38,714 nucleotides of DNA. It comes from Candidatus Wolfebacteria bacterium. Lineage in GTDB: Bacteria > Patescibacteriota > Minisyncoccia > Phycocordibacterales > GCA-2401445. This document shows, piece by piece, positions 8,601 to 35,814 of this stretch. Position numbers and translations under genes: made by a program. Where the stretch lies: assembly GCA_002401445.1 (NCBI GenBank), contig NVTD01000002.1, positions 1-38,714 of the forward strand, read 5' to 3'. Position 1 is the first letter of the stretch; each line of letters opens with the position of its first letter. The notes beneath the pieces are model-generated. The model was not told where the DNA came from, searched no databases, and worked only from the letters and a program-made list of their open reading frames with translations.

Positions 8601-9029
8601 ATGATTCTCAAGGTCAAAAAGTTATCAGGAAGCGAGGATTTGCCGACAGTGGCATATGCACATGATGGTGACGCGGCTTTTGATCTATACGCAAGCAAGC
8701 GAATTTCTATTGAGCCACACGAGCGAGTACAAGTACCCACCGGTATTGCACTCGCTCTTTCTTTTGGGTACGCGGGACTTATTTGGGACAAGAGTGGTTT
8801 GTCACACAAACATGGACTACGCACTTTGGGAGGAGTAGTCGATGCAAGTTACCGTGGGGAAGTGATGGTCGGGATGATTAATCTTTCAGACGAAACATAT
8901 GTTTTTGAGAGAGGGAATAAGGTAGCACAAATGGTTATTCAAAAAGTAGAGCATTGTGAGATTGAGGTCGTGGATAATTTGGATGATACCTCTCGCGGAG
9001 AGAGTGGATTTGGAAGCACGGGCAAGTAG
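8601..9029 (+). CDS. dut: dUTP diphosphatase (dUTPase)
   Basis: 142 residues, trimeric type. It hydrolyses dUTP to dUMP and pyrophosphate, keeping uracil out of DNA and feeding thyA. All five motifs are present in order: GDAAFDLYA, WDKSGLSHKHGL (normally PRSGLA), GGVVDASYRGEV, FERGNKVAQMVI and RGESGFGSTG. The D-x-SG form of motif 2 is a modest departure. The ATG at 8601 is chosen over an upstream start inside tmk. A strong promoter for another transcript overlaps the dut stop codon. Confidence 0.94.
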   Translation: MILKVKKLSGSEDLPTVAYAHDGDAAFDLYASKRISIEPHERVQVPTGIALALSFGYAGLIWDKSGLSHKHGLRTLGGVVDASYRGEVMVGMINLSDETYVFERGNKVAQMVIQKVEHCEIEVVDNLDDTSRGESGFGSTGK

Positions 9030-11160: not shown

Positions 11161-11433
11161 ATGAATACTAAAACAAATATCATTGGCCTTAAAGAGCTTA
11201 GAGAAAATACTGAAAAATATATCGCCCAAGTGAGTAAGGGAAAGTCTTTTACTGTGGTGAAGCGTTCTCGTCCTGTATTTAAAATGATACCTGTGGATGA
11301 GTGGGGAGATGAGGGGCATTGGGAAACGTTGCTTGATTTGACAAAAGGAAAAGATAAAGGGATTACCGCTGAAAAACTTCTTGGGTATATTAAAGAATAT
11401 AATGACAAGCAAGATCGAAAAGTTTCTTCGTAA
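11161..11433 (+). CDS. Phd/YefM-type antitoxin
   Basis: 90 residues. The N-terminal segment TNIIGLKELRENTEKYIAQVSKGKSFTVVKRSRPVFKMIPVDEW follows the Phd/YefM fold pattern (a beta strand, the L-R-x-N helix, then the F-x-V-x-x-R-S-R-P-V-F strand). This half dimerises and binds the operator, while the C-terminal helix would wrap the toxin. The ATG at 11161 coincides with the predicted transcription start. The toxin gene overlaps its last 32 bases in another frame, typical translational coupling. The direct repeats over the promoter are likely its binding sites. Confidence 0.85.
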   Translation: MNTKTNIIGLKELRENTEKYIAQVSKGKSFTVVKRSRPVFKMIPVDEWGDEGHWETLLDLTKGKDKGITAEKLLGYIKEYNDKQDRKVSS

Positions 11434-11641
11434 GTTAAATTCGCGAAGGAGAAAAATTTTAGGTGGAACACTACTGCGGATGACTAGGGGAAATTTTGAG
11501 GGTTTGCATGTCAAAAAACTTGAGGGGTTTGCTAATCGTTATCGTGTGAGAAAAGGGGATATTCGTATAAAATATTCTCTTGATAAAAATAATAAAGCAG
11601 CAGAAATTGAAATAGAGTGGCGTGGTGACACCACGTATTAA
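11402..11641 (+). CDS. RelE/ParE-superfamily toxin
   Basis: 79 residues from the ATG at 11402. It is a small, very basic protein with pattern MTSKIEKFLRKLNSRRRKIL (two helices), then HVKKLEGFANRYRVRKGDIRIKY and KAAEIEIEW strands, matching the RelE/ParE fold (K-L-x-G..YR-x-R-x-G-D-I-R). RelE members cut mRNA on the ribosome and ParE members poison gyrase, and the sequence alone does not decide. Overlap with the upstream antitoxin supports a toxin-antitoxin pair. The earlier in-frame start at 11381 is a TTG and less likely. Confidence 0.82.
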   Translation: MTSKIEKFLRKLNSRRRKILGGTLLRMTRGNFEGLHVKKLEGFANRYRVRKGDIRIKYSLDKNNKAAEIEIEWRGDTTY

Positions 11642-11782: not shown

Positions 11783-12538
11783 ATGGATATAATGCTCAGA
11801 AGTGCTCTCCGTGAACATCACGGACTGCGTAATCAATTGGATAAAAATCTTATCGGCAATCATGGAGACGAGTGGGAGAAGGAATTCAAAAAGTTTCTTC
11901 GCAAGGAACCGTGTTGGAATGATGTGCAAGCAGGTGGTAGCCAAGCTAAGCTTGCCCACGAGTTTAGACGGGAGTTCCTTAAGAATGGAGGTGAAATTGT
12001 TAAGATGTGTCTATCGTGGGAACTTTTTTACTGCGAGGAATTTGGTGAAAACCAGGATTTCTCACAACTGAAAATCCCAGAAAAACAAAAAGGTTTCAAC
12101 CGACTCATTGTTGTTGCCAAAGGTATGACAATGAATCTCACTTACTATGCATGTACAAGGAAATTCTTATGCGAGCGATATGAGAAAGATTTGGATGCTA
12201 TTGTCATAGAGAACGACAGTGTATCCAAAGAATCCTACGCTATTTGGGTACGTGACTGCGTAGAAGCAGATGAAGGGTTAAAAAACCTTTCAGCGGGCGA
12301 TCTATTAAAGAGAGGGATTAAAGGCATCACTCTTCTCGAGAGAATGCTTCTTGAACTCAAATATTTCCGAGAAACAGGCAAACATTTAGACATTGAGAAT
12401 ATCACTCTTTGTTCAGGTTCGCGTTTTCCTGACGATCGCGTGCCGGGCGCGAGCTGGCGCGACGGCGGGTTTGGGGTTTGTTGGTTCTGTTCAGCCGATC
12501 GCTTCTCGCGCTTGCGTTCTCGTGCAGTAGTTTCTTAA
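11783..12538 (+). CDS. Hypothetical protein with a variable-region-like C terminus
   Basis: 251 residues. Residues 1-205 are a soluble, helical body with no recognised domain, ordinary for this genome in base composition. The last 45 residues, from about LCSGSRFPDD to RLRSRAVVS, are encoded by abruptly GC-rich DNA almost without adenine (6 A in the 100 bases 12421-12520). They contain the aromatic/Gly pattern (ASWRDGGFGVCWFCSADRFS) of C-type-lectin-like variable regions made by diversity-generating retroelements. The ATG is set by AAAGAAAGGAT 6 bases upstream, nearly identical to that of the gene at 31310, which also ends in such a tail. No reverse transcriptase or template repeat is in the window, so it would be a remote target. 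Its role as a ligand-binding protein is inferred. Confidence 0.65.
   Translation: MDIMLRSALREHHGLRNQLDKNLIGNHGDEWEKEFKKFLRKEPCWNDVQAGGSQAKLAHEFRREFLKNGGEIVKMCLSWELFYCEEFGENQDFSQLKIPEKQKGFNRLIVVAKGMTMNLTYYACTRKFLCERYEKDLDAIVIENDSVSKESYAIWVRDCVEADEGLKNLSAGDLLKRGIKGITLLERMLLELKYFRETGKHLDIENITLCSGSRFPDDRVPGASWRDGGFGVCWFCSADRFSRLRSRAVVS
12406..12538 (+). other. Adenine-depleted 3' segment (candidate DGR variable region)
   Basis: Many codons here end in C or T with free first two positions (GAC GAT CGC GGC AGC CGC GAC GGC TTT TGT), as expected if the source template had AAC/AAT codons mutated at adenines. The segment ends at the stop codon, where variable regions usually sit. Confidence 0.5.
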
Positions 12539-12572
12539 TTTACCTTGAATCTTTTTTCTTTTTCTCTTACAT

Positions 12573-12610
12573 CCCCACGATTGAGCAAGCAATCGTGGGG
12601 TATTTTTTTT
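12573..12610 (+). terminator. Intrinsic terminator
   Basis: CCCCACGATTG and CAATCGTGGGG form a perfect 11-bp stem followed by TATTTTTTTT. Confidence 0.85.
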
Positions 12611-12653: not shown

Positions 12654-15539
12654 ATGGCCAAAGAAAATACAGAAGATAATAAAGAAAAAAGCACATTAGT
12701 TCTAAAAGAGGAGAAAATCCTTGATTTTTGGCGTGAAAAAGATATTTTCAAAAAAACTCTAGAAAAAGAGTCGCCCGAGGGAGAGTTCGTATTCCATGAT
12801 GGACCTCCGTTTGCAACCGGAGCCCCTCACTATGGGCATCTTGTTGCGAGCGCTATTAAGGACGCGATACCTCGATATAAAACGATGCGTGGATTTCATG
12901 TTGACCGAAAATGGGGATGGGATTGTCACGGGCTTCCAATTGAAAACATTGTAGAGAAAGAGCTTGGAACAAAAAGCAAAAAGGATATTGAGAAAATTGG
13001 CGTAAAGAAGTTCAATGAATTATGCCGTGAGAAAATCTTTACGTATATAGATGTGTGGAATGAATTCATTCCACGGTTTGGACGATGGGCTGATATGGAG
13101 AATCCATACAAAACCATGGATACGAGTTTTATGGAGAGTGAGTGGTGGGCTTTTAAAGAACTCTATGACAAAGGACTTGTGTATGAGGACTTTAGATCAA
13201 TGCATATTTGCCCTAGATGCGAGACAACACTTGCGCAATCAGAAGTAGCGGAAGGATACAAAGATATTAAAGATCTCGCAGTAACTGTTAAGTTTCAATT
13301 AAAGGATGAACCAAAGACATTTTTACTTGCATGGACGACAACACCGTGGACTCTTCCTGGGAATGTCGCACTTGCTGTGGGTAGTGATGTTAAATATGTA
13401 AAATGGCATGTTGGTGATACTGCTTTTATATTAGCGGAGGCACAAGCACAAAAGTATTTTCCAGATTTTACTCGAGAGGACTCGAGAGCAGAAGATATTT
13501 CTGTAGAGAGTCTGATTGGAAAAGAGTATATTCCGCCGTTTGATTCATATGTTAATGATGAATCATTAAAGAATCGAGAAAATGGTTGGAAAATATATGC
13601 AGTTGATTTTGTGACAGATGATTCTGGAACGGGAATAGCACATGAAGCACCAGCGTTTGGAGCAGAAGATTTAGAATTGGCCCAAAAAGAAAATATTCCA
13701 GTTATTAAACATGTAGGTATGGATGGAATTATTGCCTCAGAGGTGAAAGAACTCGCTGGTCTATCAGTAAAACCAATCGACGATCATCAAGCAACGGATG
13801 TTGCTGTTATCAAATACCTTGCCGGTAAAGATCTATTATTCTCAAAAGAAAAGTATGAACACTCGTATCCACATTGTTGGCGTTGTGATACACCGCTTAT
13901 TAACTATGCTACTAGTTCATGGTTTGTTGCTGTCCAGAAAATAAAGGACGGATTGGTACAAAATAGTAGTGAAATAAAGTGGTCACCAGAACATATAAAG
14001 AATGGTAGGTGGGGAGGATGGATTGACGGTGCACGAGATTGGTCTATTTCACGTCAACGATTCTGGGCGAATACTATTCCAGTGTGGCGATGTGGTTCAT
14101 GTAAAAAGGAAAGAGTCTTTGGAAGTGTTGCTGATTTGCAGACCGCTAGTGGAAAAGAAGTAACAGATTTACATAAAGATATAGTTGATGATGTGATTGT
14201 AAAATGCGAGTGTGGTTCTGATATGCACCGTGTTCCTGACGTATTAGACACATGGTTTGATTCTGGTTCTGTTCCATATGCGGCACATCACTACCCATTT
14301 GAGAATAAGGAAAAAGTAGAAACTAATACTCCTGCTGACTTTATTGCAGAAGGACAAGACCAAGTAAGTAAATGGTTTTACTACCAGCATGTATTGGGAG
14401 AAGCACTGTTTAATAAGCCCGCGTTTAAAAACGTAATAGTAAACGGGATTGTTGTGTCTGAAGTGGATGGCAAAAAATTAAGTAAACGTCTCCAAAATTA
14501 TCCAGATCCACAATTACTTATTGATAAGTACGGAGCGGATGCTGTGCGGCTATATCTACTGTCGTCACCAGTTGTGCGGGCAGAAAATCTTACTTTCAAA
14601 GAGGGTGGAGTAGATGAAGTTATGAAAAAAGTTATGGCTCGGTTGCATAATGTACTTTCATTTTACGAATTATATAAAGACAGCGTTAAACACGGGGCAA
14701 CGAGTAGTTCAACAAATATTCTTGATCAATGGATTGTTGCACGACTTAATCAGACAGTAGAACAAGTAACAAGTGGTATGGAAGAGTATGAACTGGATCG
14801 TGCTACGAGACCGCTTACAGAGTTTGTCGATGATCTTTCTACTTGGTACATCAGACGAAGTCGTGATCGATTCAAAGGAGATGATGAGGAGGATAAGAAA
14901 TTGGCGCTAGGGACAACGCGGTTTGTAATGCGTGAGTTTGCAAAAGTACTTGCACCGTTTACTCCGTTCATAGCAGATCACTTATACCTTGCTCTTGGGG
15001 GAGAAAAGGAGAGTGTACACCTTGATGTCTGGCCGGAAATAAAAGCTGCGGATAAAGTAGTTCTTGAAACCATGTCTGAGGCACGACGTATTGTTTCGCT
15101 AGCACTTGAATTGCGTGCAAAGGAGAATATGAAAGTACGACAACCTCTTGCAAGGCTTACTGTAAAATCAACTCCTTTTTTTGATGAAATGGTTTCAGTT
15201 ATCAAAGATGAAGTTAATGTAAAAGAAGTTGTATTTGACGAGTCTCTTTCGGAAGATGTGGCTCTTGATACGGTACTGACCCCAGAATTGAAAGCAGAGG
15301 GACATGCGCGAGATTTAATTCGTACTATTCAAAGTTTGCGCAAACAAGAGAAATTGTCGCCTTCAGATATTGTTCAACTGGCAATACAAACCGACGAAAA
15401 AGGCAAAGCTTTGGTGGAGAAATTCAAAGAAGAAATTGAAAGAGTTGCTTCAGTAAACATATCTTTTGAGAATGTGTCATCAGAACCTTTACTCATAGAA
15501 GAAATGTCATTTGCTCTAGCAATAACAATAACCACCTAG
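12654..15539 (+). CDS. ileS: Isoleucyl-tRNA synthetase, eukaryote-like type
   Basis: 961 residues, class I. The first signature is HYGH (59-62) in DGPPFATGAPHYGHLVAS, and the second is KLSKR (608-612) in GKKLSKRLQNY. The motif WGWDCHGLPIENIVEKELG and the GPPFATGxPHYGH form mark the type found in eukaryotes and in a minority of bacteria, not the HIGH form PYANGxxHIGH of the common bacterial enzyme. The editing CP1 domain (about 200-400) has the TTPWTLPGN and DSGTGIAHEAPAFGAED motifs. A cysteine-based zinc site is visible in CP1 (CPRCETT, CWRCDTP) and CGSCKKE. No C-terminal zinc finger of the bacterial type is seen. This enzyme type is associated with mupirocin insensitivity, which would be an inference here. 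Confidence 0.95.
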   Translation: MAKENTEDNKEKSTLVLKEEKILDFWREKDIFKKTLEKESPEGEFVFHDGPPFATGAPHYGHLVASAIKDAIPRYKTMRGFHVDRKWGWDCHGLPIENIVEKELGTKSKKDIEKIGVKKFNELCREKIFTYIDVWNEFIPRFGRWADMENPYKTMDTSFMESEWWAFKELYDKGLVYEDFRSMHICPRCETTLAQSEVAEGYKDIKDLAVTVKFQLKDEPKTFLLAWTTTPWTLPGNVALAVGSDVKYVKWHVGDTAFILAEAQAQKYFPDFTREDSRAEDISVESLIGKEYIPPFDSYVNDESLKNRENGWKIYAVDFVTDDSGTGIAHEAPAFGAEDLELAQKENIPVIKHVGMDGIIASEVKELAGLSVKPIDDHQATDVAVIKYLAGKDLLFSKEKYEHSYPHCWRCDTPLINYATSSWFVAVQKIKDGLVQNSSEIKWSPEHIKNGRWGGWIDGARDWSISRQRFWANTIPVWRCGSCKKERVFGSVADLQTASGKEVTDLHKDIVDDVIVKCECGSDMHRVPDVLDTWFDSGSVPYAAHHYPFENKEKVETNTPADFIAEGQDQVSKWFYYQHVLGEALFNKPAFKNVIVNGIVVSEVDGKKLSKRLQNYPDPQLLIDKYGADAVRLYLLSSPVVRAENLTFKEGGVDEVMKKVMARLHNVLSFYELYKDSVKHGATSSSTNILDQWIVARLNQTVEQVTSGMEEYELDRATRPLTEFVDDLSTWYIRRSRDRFKGDDEEDKKLALGTTRFVMREFAKVLAPFTPFIADHLYLALGGEKESVHLDVWPEIKAADKVVLETMSEARRIVSLALELRAKENMKVRQPLARLTVKSTPFFDEMVSVIKDEVNVKEVVFDESLSEDVALDTVLTPELKAEGHARDLIRTIQSLRKQEKLSPSDIVQLAIQTDEKGKALVEKFKEEIERVASVNISFENVSSEPLLIEEMSFALAITITT

Positions 15540-31023: not shown

Positions 31024-31074
31024 TTAGTCAGACTAGGAAAGTCATTCTGTAACCGGTTAGTCTGACTAACCGGT
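31024..31074. promoter_or_regulatory. Two operator-like palindromes with the core TTAGTC-N-GACTAR
   Basis: TTAGTC A GACTAG (31024-31036) and, further on, a perfect 11-bp inverted repeat: ACCGGTTAGTC (31052-31062), T, GACTAACCGGT (31064-31074). The second ends 4 bases before the -35 of the next promoter. Confidence 0.6.
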
Positions 31075-31078
31075 CTCC

Positions 31079-31108
31079 TTGACAGATAGCTAGAAAATGA
31101 TGTATAAG
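31079..31108 (+). promoter_or_regulatory. Promoter of the variable-tail gene at 31310
   Basis: TTGACA (31079-31084), an 18-base spacer and TATAAG (31103-31108), with TG immediately before it. It implies a leader of about 195 bases before the ATG. Confidence 0.55.
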
Positions 31109-31146
31109 ATGTAGAGTATTTAGGTACTTTGATATTACTTGCGAAA

Positions 31147-31199: not shown

Positions 31200-31309
31200 A
31201 TGGAGCCCGCCTGTATCGAGTGGTACATTCGGACAAGTAACCATGCATAAACATAAATAAGCTTGCTGTGTGTTACATGTCGAGCGAAACAAAAGAAAGG
31301 ATTGTTACC

Positions 31310-31918
31310 ATGACGACAAAAGACAAAGTTGTTACCGACGATCTCACGGGTAGAAAGCCCACAGATGGAGAAATTGTTACGTTTACTAAACGTACAAATG
31401 AACTAACTAATCGGTTCTTAAAAGGAGCGCTGTGTAATCAGAGAGTTCTTGATTCACTTCAGAAGGAAATTGAGTTTGGTTGGAACATAATTGACTGTGA
31501 TGTTCCCGTATTTATTCCGGAAGGGTGGAATGTACTCCTTGATGAAGTACAGCTTCCGAATCGTGTTCTCGGTAAGATAAAGCTTAACAAGCAATTAACC
31601 GACATCATTGAACTGTTTATTTCAGAACAACAAAAGGGTGATAAGGTAATCAATGGAAACAAACTCCGAGAGATTCTCAAGGATAAACGAGTATACACCG
31701 CTCATGTCCTTGATTATTTACTAGAAAATACTCGTCTCATTCCAGAGGAATGGAAAGAAAAAACAATATTTTTCTGGGGGACGATTTATCTCCGCGCTGG
31801 TGATGGTCGCCTCTATGTTCGTTGTCTCGGCTGGCGTGACGACAGGTGGAGCTGGAGCTGCTACCGTCTTGTGAGCGGCTGGAATGCCGGTCATGTGTCT
31901 GCGGTGTCTGCAAGTTAA
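31310..31918 (+). CDS. Hypothetical protein with variable-region-like C terminus
   Basis: 202 residues from the ATG at 31310, chosen because AGAAAGGA sits about 8 bases upstream, matching the gene at 11783. An ATG at 31277 is possible. Residues 1-145 are a helical soluble body (ELTNRFLKGALCNQRVLDSLQKEIEFGWNIID) with no recognised domain. From about 157 the segment FFWGTIYLRAGDGRLYVRCLGWRDDRWSWSCYRLVSGWNAGHVSAVSAS is encoded by adenine-poor DNA (12 A in 31801-31910) and has the W-x-x-x-x-W-x-W aromatic spacing of lectin-like variable regions of diversity-generating retroelements. It lies alone between the efp side and recA, behind palindromic operators and a structured leader. No retroelement genes lie nearby. 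Confidence 0.65.
   Translation: MTTKDKVVTDDLTGRKPTDGEIVTFTKRTNELTNRFLKGALCNQRVLDSLQKEIEFGWNIIDCDVPVFIPEGWNVLLDEVQLPNRVLGKIKLNKQLTDIIELFISEQQKGDKVINGNKLREILKDKRVYTAHVLDYLLENTRLIPEEWKEKTIFFWGTIYLRAGDGRLYVRCLGWRDDRWSWSCYRLVSGWNAGHVSAVSAS
31791..31915 (+). other. Adenine-depleted 3' segment (candidate DGR variable region)
   Basis: Fifteen of the codons in the stretch are NNC or NNT (GGC CGT GAC GAC AGC AGC TGC TAC CGT AGC GGC AAT GCC GGT CAT) interspersed with fixed TGG codons, as expected for AAC/AAT template positions randomised at adenine. The segment ends at the stop. Confidence 0.5.
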
Positions 31919-31950: not shown

Positions 31951-31986
31951 AAAAACCCGTTTCGATTCTATCGAAATGGGTTTTTC
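31951..31986 (+). terminator. Intrinsic terminator
   Basis: AAAAACCCGTTTCGA, loop TTCTA, TCGAAATGGGTTTTT. Confidence 0.85.
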
Positions 31987-33128: not shown

Positions 33129-33608
33129 TTAAATATCTTCTAAATCAATTGGGTCTGTTGTGCTTGCTTGATCGTCTTGCGCGTCTTCGAGTATAGGTTC
33201 TTCAAAAGAGTCTGTTGATGGGCTTGTCGTTTGTGGCAAAAGTAAGTCACTTTCCAGATTATTATTTAGATATACAACCTCACGTGTTTCTGTGGTGATG
33301 CGTCCAAAGCGGTCTGTTGCCTCTATTTCAATTATAGTATAGCCAGGAGACAGGAGCAATTTCTCTTGAAAGTTGCCGTTTTCACTAATGGATACTTCAC
33401 GATCATTTACTTTAATGACACTCGTATTTAGTGCTATTCCAGAAATAGTAATAAGTGATTGTTTGGTGTTCGAACCATTGACGGGGGATGTGATGGTTAA
33501 CTGTGGACCGTTTATTATGTTGCGCGATTGGTAGTATACGTAACCAATTACTAGTAAAACAAGTAATAAGATCGAGATTACTTTGATATGTGCTAGGATT
33601 TTCTGCAT
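33129..33608 (-). CDS. Membrane-anchored Ig-like domain protein
   Basis: 159 residues. One transmembrane segment (about 10-27, [17 protein letters not shown]) is followed by a bacterial Ig-like domain (about 35-110, [71 protein letters not shown], similar to the glucodextranase-B type). An acidic Ser/Asp-rich tail ends the protein. The ATG at 33608 lies 1 base after the ftsK stop, so it is translationally coupled. Longer in-frame starts fall inside ftsK. The place between ftsK and recA suggests an envelope role around division, but this is inferred. Confidence 0.75.
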
Positions 33609-33609
33609 A

Positions 33610-35814
33610 TTATTGCTCTGTCTCTTCCTCCTCATCTTCTGAATCGTTTTCCTCGTACTCGTCTTCTTGTCCCTCGGTGTATACTTCCCGTGCTTTTGAT
33701 CCGTTTGCAGGTCCAATGACGCCACGCTCCTCAAGCATGTCTATTAAACGTGCAGCGCGAGCATATCCGACACGCAGTTTCCGTTGTAGGTATGATGTAG
33801 ATGCTTTGCCACTTTGCACGATTGTTTCGCGTGCCTCCTCATACAAATCATCGTCAGCGTCGTTGTCGTCTTCTACAGAGCCAGCAAATATTGAATTTGA
33901 ATCCTTCTGCATGCTTTCCAAATTGATTTCGTCAGGTATTTCGTCTTGGTAGGATTTAACTAGGAATTTTACAACTTTCTTTACCTCATCCTCGTTGATA
34001 TATCCAGATTGTATACGTTGAGGTTTTGACATCTCGCCTGATAGGAAAAGCATGTCTCCAGCCCCGAGGAGTTTTTCGGCTCCACCTGCATCAAGAATAG
34101 TTCGTGAATCAATCTGCGAAGCAACTTGCAAGGCGATACGTGATGGAACATTTGCCTTAATCAATCCGGTAATAACATTTACAGAAGGACGTTGTGTTGA
34201 AAGAATTAGGTGAATACCTACAGCTCTACTCATTTGTGCAAGCCGTACGATACCTGCTTCTAGTTCGCGAGGGTAGGCTTGCATGATGTCTGCGAGCTCA
34301 TCAATTATGATGACTATGTATGGCATTGCCTCTGGCAGACCTTCCTTCGCGTCTTCATCATCTGTGTCTTCAACAGCTTCTACAGCTGGTTTCAGTATGT
34401 TCTTGTGATATGAATCAATGTCACGAACTGATTCTGTTTCCAGAATATCGTAACGTCGTTCCATTTCCTTTATTGCCCATTTGAGAGCAAGAATTGCTTT
34501 CTTTGGATCTGTAATAACAGGTGTAAGTAGATGAGGTATTTTGTTGTATAGAGTCAACTCAACTCGTTTTGGATCTACCATTATAAAGCGCAACTTGTCC
34601 GGCGGGCTTTTGTAGAGTAGGGAAGTGACGATCATGTGTATCAGAGCTGATTTACCTGAACCTGTAGTCCCGGCAATTAGTAGGTGAGGCATTTTTGCAA
34701 TATTTGTGAATTGAGCTTTTCCAGAAATACCTTTTCCAAGAGATGCAAAAACTACTTTGTCTGAATTTTGAAATTCAGCAGCCGCAAGTAGGGTTCCAAG
34801 CCCCACCGTAGTTTTTGTACTGTTTGGTATCTCGATACCCACTAGTGCTTTGCCAGGAATAGGTGCCTCTATACGAAGGGGGTGAGCAGCAAGAGCAAGA
34901 GAAAGATCATTTTGCAAACCAACAATTCGTGCAAGTTTTACACCCTCGGCAGGTTTTAATGCGTAACGTGTTATGGAGGGTCCTACAGATATCTCATCCA
35001 TCTCAACTCGTATGCCAAAGTTTGCAAGCGTACGTTTTATTATATTCGCATTTGCTTTTATGTCTCCGACACCAGGTTTACCTTTATCTACAGATAGAAG
35101 GGATAGGGGAGGGAGAATGTGTTCGCTTAGTGAAGGCTGCATTATTAGACCTTCTTCGGTGTGTCCTTTTGTAAGAAACCCAAATGATTTGCGCTCCTCC
35201 TCCTCGGAATTTTCCTCCTCATCTTCCTCCTCCTCATCCTCATCTTCCTCCTCCTCATCCTCATCACTTTCCTCCTCCTCTGCTTCTCCCATATCAATAT
35301 TGAAATCTTCCTCCTCTTCCTCTTCTTTAGAACTCTTCCAGAATTTTAATTTCTCGATGTCTATGCCTATGTCGAAAGTAACCAAGAAAGTAATAGCGAG
35401 TATCGCTGCAAGAATTATAAAACTTGCATAGGTATCAAACATTTTCACAAGAGGAACAGCAAGTGCTTTCCCTGCTAATCCTCCAAAAGATTCATGAATT
35501 ATTTCCAATAGACTTAATCCTGCAATTGTAAAAATAGTCGGAGAGATAATTTTGCGTAGAGGAATTGGTTCAGAGAGAGAACGGAAAAAAGACACAGAAA
35601 ACAAAACAGACAGCATAAGTATTAGATAGTAGCCGAACCCAAGAAGTATAAATAACCATTCATAGACTTTTTCACCAACTATTCCTGCTTCACCCATTGC
35701 AGATAGAGAGAGAAGTAAGGAAACAACCAAAAAGAACACAGCATAGATTCCATGCCAGGTGCGCTCTTCAAGTTCGGGGAATATACCAGGTTTCTTTTTG
35801 GGTCGTCGTCCCAT
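33610..35814 (-). CDS. ftsK: DNA translocase FtsK
   Basis: 734 residues. The N-terminal part has four transmembrane helices (about 18-42, 50-72, 87-105, 128-150). A linker with a very acidic stretch (about 163-208, mostly Glu/Asp) follows. The motor has Walker A GTTGSGKS (382-389) and Walker B IIIDELAD (502-509). The gamma domain (about 655-712, VQSGKASTSYLQRKLRVGYARAARLIDMLEERGVIGPANGSKAREVY) binds DNA polar sequences, and a second acidic tail ends the protein. FtsK pumps chromosome ends across the septum. It heads the ftsK-Ig-like-recA unit and diverges from an HTH regulator. Confidence 0.97.
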   Translation of the reverse strand: MGRRPKKKPGIFPELEERTWHGIYAVFFLVVSLLLSLSAMGEAGIVGEKVYEWLFILLGFGYYLILMLSVLFSVSFFRSLSEPIPLRKIISPTIFTIAGLSLLEIIHESFGGLAGKALAVPLVKMFDTYASFIILAAILAITFLVTFDIGIDIEKLKFWKSSKEEEEEEDFNIDMGEAEEEESDEDEEEEDEDEEEEDEEENSEEEERKSFGFLTKGHTEEGLIMQPSLSEHILPPLSLLSVDKGKPGVGDIKANANIIKRTLANFGIRVEMDEISVGPSITRYALKPAEGVKLARIVGLQNDLSLALAAHPLRIEAPIPGKALVGIEIPNSTKTTVGLGTLLAAAEFQNSDKVVFASLGKGISGKAQFTNIAKMPHLLIAGTTGSGKSALIHMIVTSLLYKSPPDKLRFIMVDPKRVELTLYNKIPHLLTPVITDPKKAILALKWAIKEMERRYDILETESVRDIDSYHKNILKPAVEAVEDTDDEDAKEGLPEAMPYIVIIIDELADIMQAYPRELEAGIVRLAQMSRAVGIHLILSTQRPSVNVITGLIKANVPSRIALQVASQIDSRTILDAGGAEKLLGAGDMLFLSGEMSKPQRIQSGYINEDEVKKVVKFLVKSYQDEIPDEINLESMQKDSNSIFAGSVEDDNDADDDLYEEARETIVQSGKASTSYLQRKLRVGYARAARLIDMLEERGVIGPANGSKAREVYTEGQEDEYEENDSEDEEEETEQ

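Follow-up and report, generated by a model that had tools for sequence, protein, structure and literature searches.

Does the adenine-poor end of a gene in Candidatus Wolfebacteria bacterium record the action of a diversity-generating retroelement (DGR), a known natural hypermutation machine, and does that DGR also serve other genes? We analyzed a window of 38,714 nucleotides that carries this gene (hereafter the 31310 gene, Table 1). Between 31801 and 31910, its tail has 12 adenines in 110 bases, a frequency of 0.109, compared with 0.306 in the window and 0.299 in the gene. On the plus strand of the whole window, 12 or fewer adenines per 110 bases are found only at 12393-12579, 31769-31911, 33587-33732, and 35179-35298. 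Two of these four stretches are the tails of the 31310 and 11783 genes, and a gene on the minus strand faces the remaining two. The scan of the minus strand gave no such stretch. The in-frame codons between the TGG codons of the 31310 tail are mostly NNC or NNT, and the tryptophan codons are fixed. The W-x-W pattern described in the original prediction is thus confirmed, as is its placement at the end of both genes, where the tails close ORFs at 31918 and 12538. The bodies of the two proteins are indeed unlike: a search of the own genome with the 31310 protein matched C59:5104-5418 only, and left the 11783 gene unmatched.

Table 1. Features read from the sequence at the two target genes and in their surroundings.
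Feature	Position	Strand	Basis or remark
DGR target gene, family 1, 202 aa	31310..31918	+	ORF; relatives
Variable repeat (VR), family 1; start approximate, by analogy with relatives' template repeats (TRs)	31799..31915	+	Adenine-specific changes relative to relatives' TRs
Conserved 3' boundary of the VR, …GCGGTGTCTGCAAGT before the stop	31899..31915	+	TR/VR identity ends there in relatives
Ribosome-binding site AAAGAAAGGAT	31292..31302	+	Exact string search
Promoter-like TTGACA-N18-TATAAG with AGGTACTTTGATATT leader	31079..31136	+	Common to the C59 paralogue
REP-like dispersed palindrome ACCGGTTAGTCTGACTAACCGGT, not part of a DGR	31052..31074	.	Copies in genome
Hairpin followed by a T run, probably the gene terminator	31952..31985	+	Occupies the place of the relatives' CTTNG-rich post-VR element
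Second DGR target gene, family 2, 251 aa; body unrelated to family 1	11783..12538	+	Relatives in 15/98 genomes searched
VR, family 2	12416..12535	+	Comparison with the TR of G081

The 31310 tail and the templates of its relatives

The Pfam scan of the 202-aa protein gave nothing above the cut-off. Of 60 genomes searched, namely the window's own and others of the same order, 15 have relatives of it (family 1). A species-representative collection contains 80 such loci, and where their group is named it is nearly always Patescibacteria/Parcubacteria. The collection was scanned with four close rows, since the full 16-row alignment of the family was too diverse, and the closest relatives there are from Candidatus Taylorbacteria (54-55%). 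In the own genome, a family profile revealed no third member besides the 31310 gene and its C59 homologue. A search of phage genome records gave no match, and four putatively viral contigs of a viral collection (L207-L210) encode relatives with 42-45% identity. No neighbourhood shared with the relatives is evident; RecA or EF-P lie near a target in a few loci only. The usual fold of DGR variable proteins is the C-type lectin. The predicted model of the 202-aa protein (pLDDT 89.5) has no PDB match at E<=0.001, but several C-type lectins are among its weak top matches, and the fold leans towards this type, of which matches this weak are no proof; the viral library was uninformative.

In relatives, an A-rich copy of the tail with a different 3' flank lies a few hundred bases downstream, and in most cases the next gene encodes an RT that bears the DGR motif GNxxSQ. 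This TR adjoins the target in 22 of the 80 family-1 loci. Adenines, just 27% of the template, account for 374 of the 398 mismatches in these 22 TR/VR pairs. The VRs of the relatives end with GCAAGT-stop and their TRs with GCAACTCTCTTCATTTCTC; the 31310 gene also ends with GCAAGT-stop.

Since the own genome lacks a TR/VR pair, the adenine bias of the 31310 tail rests on the templates of relatives. Compared with their TR consensus at codon positions 1-2, the tail is changed in 13 of 21 template-A columns (those with A in at least 70% of the relatives' TRs) and in 5 of 34 conserved non-A columns (Fisher p=4e-4). When 20 TRs of relatives were used singly, p ranged from 0.0002 to 0.05, and against most of them 15-17 of 24-26 template adenines were changed. 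The same comparison in the body of the protein showed no adenine bias (9/44 vs 20/93 changed). What would have spoken against the original prediction is a conserved tail free of adenine-specific variation; the bias seen in the tail, and absent from the body, is the reverse of this.

Judged by these comparisons, the 31310 tail is a DGR variable repeat. We give hardly any credence to the alternative that it is an ordinary A-poor, Trp-rich C-terminal domain produced by composition or chance. The C59 homologue does show that the signature is not found in every member of the family, since its tail shows no adenine bias (6/21 template-A vs 9/34 non-A columns changed). However, composition or chance fits poorly with a bias restricted to the tail of the 31310 gene, and with TRs that adjoin the targets in 22 relatives. 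The C59 homologue itself was discarded as a further current target, as its tail lacks the bias and its 3' boundary is degraded (CTCAAGT). A TR-like pair in genome G018 was found to be false, the sequence not being of VR type. One other locus, L113, has two near-identical A-rich template-like copies about 6 kb apart (8732-8856 and 14654-14778).

A second target family with another template

The tail of the 11783 gene has the same signature. Compared with the TR of a relative, G081, whose family-2 protein has 60% identity in the part that matches, it is changed at 25 of 29 template-A positions and at 11 of the remaining 51 (p=1.6e-8). Hence, the variable tails of DGR type proposed for both genes are borne out by adenine-specific changes relative to the TRs of relatives. 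The TR/VR pairs of family-2 relatives lie beside DGR RTs, and their mismatches at adenines and at other positions are 22/0, 12/0, 16/0, 23/1, and 22/1. Directly upstream of the 11783 gene, two small adjacent ORFs (11161-11641, 90 and 86 aa) are antitoxin-toxin-like by reading.

The original prediction suggested that one DGR serves several scattered genes, including these two. The two tails are both VRs with fixed Trp codons, and their genes have an identical ribosome-binding string, which speaks for a DGR with a single template. However, the TRs of the relatives differ, being of NWNYNWLDNDWN type (also given as RNSDGNLYVRYLYWNDGKWNWNYNWLDNDWN type) in family 1 and of GSRNSDGNVPNANWN type in family 2, and each adjoins its own DGR RT in a separate cassette, so that the two genes of the window belong to two DGR target families. 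Moreover, no TR able to serve both was found in the own genome. A single template for the two genes is thus contradicted, and we regard this proposal as very improbable; that one RT uses two TRs is possible. Scattered targets are nevertheless real in this group. In isolate nzgw370, VRs located on three contigs (L116, L124, and L148; A/other mismatches 11/1, 19/2, and 20/6) all match a single TR. This part of the proposal therefore holds in one relative, while in the own genome, where neither TR nor DGR RT was found, it is unsupported.

Sequences upstream and downstream of the gene

The ribosome-binding site was said to be common to both genes, and the window indeed contains this string at exactly two places, 11766 and 31292, each in front of the ATG of a target gene. 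The promoter-like sequence with its leader is absent from all fetched loci except the 31310 and C59 genes, whose upstream regions look like paralogous sequences. A palindrome was also reported ahead of the -35 in both genes. Both do have one upstream, but the two sequences are unrelated. At the 31310 gene, the palindrome is perfect and ends 4 bases ahead of the TTGACA at 31079. The own genome has about ten copies of it (six perfect over 15 bp and several variants), most of which adjoin unrelated genes. The idea that further targets could be listed from a shared promoter architecture therefore fails: the palindrome near 31063 is a REP-like repeat, and it was dropped as a guide to targets because the genes beside its other copies are unlike VR proteins.

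REP palindromes surround their Y1 transposase genes. Here, three copies (C47:11332, 11555, and 12149) surround C47:11376-12101, which matches PF01797 Y1_Tnp (24.8 bits, cut-off 23). The dispersed palindrome thus resembles the REP palindromes of Y1 (IS200-like) transposases, and it is no component of a DGR. From its sequence and its position amid TAGTCTGACTA palindromes, this gene (L063:2877-3602, the same as G000 C47:11376-12101) probably encodes a REP-associated transposase in a Patescibacterium.

Downstream, many family-1 relatives have an element of about 55 nt with repeated CTTNG motifs just after the stop (L091, L094, L096, L118, L145, L164, L166, and others), which forms an imperfect hairpin in some loci. 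At least three CTTNG motifs are present in 18 of 24 loci with a local TR or RT, in 23 of 42 loci without, and in 0.6% of the background. The folding z-scores of the element have a mean of only -1.1, and RNAalifold gave no consensus structure from what is a poor alignment. The 31310 gene lacks the element, which counts against the explanation of its tail as the VR of an orphaned target, but so do some relatives whose TR is local.

Probably orphaned, possibly remotely diversified targets

The own assembly has 62 contigs and a marker completeness of 100%, and we found no RT of DGR type in it. A search with PF00078 identified one RT, on contig C23 (L002:898-1848). Its motif is QGATSSS and the profiles that match it best are those of retron RTs, which rules it out as a DGR RT; the DGR RTs of the relatives score best with group II intron RTs. 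Rfam gave no known ncRNA at this RT. As a positive control, 16 of 26 other target-bearing genomes yielded RTs in this search. For the 31310 tail, an A-tolerant pattern allowing 3 mismatches, BLAST, and a TR peptide all failed to reveal a TR in the own assembly, and a search for a TR of the 11783 tail gave none either. The pattern, which accepts A at any VR position, matched the VRs themselves only, and the TR peptide, modelled on G045, matched only the 31310 gene and the C59 homologue in this genome. Targets that lack an RT are seen again among relatives. There is no RT match in 10 of 27 target-bearing genomes, a rough fraction as some are listed on weak hits, and these include two assemblies of 100% completeness, G015 with 4 contigs and G010 with 10. 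In G026 (L044), a TR/VR pair has 11 adenine-specific mismatches and no others, yet the 100% complete assembly has no RT.

We think it likely that the 31310 tail is the VR of an orphaned target, whose DGR is gone or unassembled, and that the 11783 gene, with its different template, is another orphaned target, independent of the first. A DGR RT would have copied the A-rich template RNA with misincorporation at its adenines, and the cDNA would have replaced the 3' end of the 31310 gene. Such mutagenic copying would remove adenines while Trp and other A-free codons stay fixed. We infer that mutagenic retrohoming, as established for DGRs generally (PMC3240598), made both tails in this lineage and, with less certainty, that the DGRs were lost rather than left unassembled. 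With the DGR gone or unassembled, the 31310 tail is now probably a frozen variant of a putative binding surface. Family membership, the adenine-specific signature, and the cassettes of TR and RT in relatives come directly from the comparison of sequences. Whether both target families of this genome are truly orphaned depends on how complete the assembly is.

Since this assembly is in 62 contigs, the RT and the TRs could lie in gaps, from where they would diversify both genes as live remote targets. The clean signature retained by the VR and the scattered targets of a single TR on three contigs of nzgw370 are consistent with this. However, it requires that three separate pieces, the RT and two TRs, are all missing despite the full set of markers, and targets without an RT occur in several other near-complete genomes as well. 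We consider remote diversification unlikely, though by no means negligible, and retain orphaned targets as the preferred explanation. It is quite doubtful that Patescibacteria retain more than one family of DGR targets after loss of the retroelement, with one variant fixed in each, or that an RT from outside the chromosome rewrites these targets.

Surveys that detect DGRs by an RT and neighbouring repeats cannot see targets such as the 31310 and 11783 genes. Testing a tail against the templates of relatives identifies VRs even where their own TR and RT are lacking, and so makes orphan or remote targets countable. A target frozen after DGR loss would reveal which variants merit keeping.

Among known systems, the clade 2 DGRs of Patescibacteria/CPR (PMC8144416) similarly have cellular targets without recognisable domains, adenine-specific mismatches, and a VR at the 3' end of the gene. 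In the DGRs of that survey, RT and VR are close together, whereas neither RT nor TR was found in our genome; its authors state that surveys miss remote targets. RT-less DGR fragments were described in the DUSEL4 Nanoarchaeota and read as fossils or as remotely diversified (PMC4372165). They too are sites with a DGR history and no RT gene, but they are archaeal and their target proteins are unrelated, and in our genome the TR is also unfound. In the DGR of Bordetella phage BPP-1 (PMC3240598), too, the VR closes the 3' end of the target gene, its 3' homing boundary is defined, and an element lies downstream of it. In BPP-1 this element is a short GC-rich hairpin that is needed after the VR, whereas the 31310 gene has only the terminator-like hairpin and the relatives have the CTTNG-rich element, which by analogy is possibly the counterpart of the BPP-1 hairpin.
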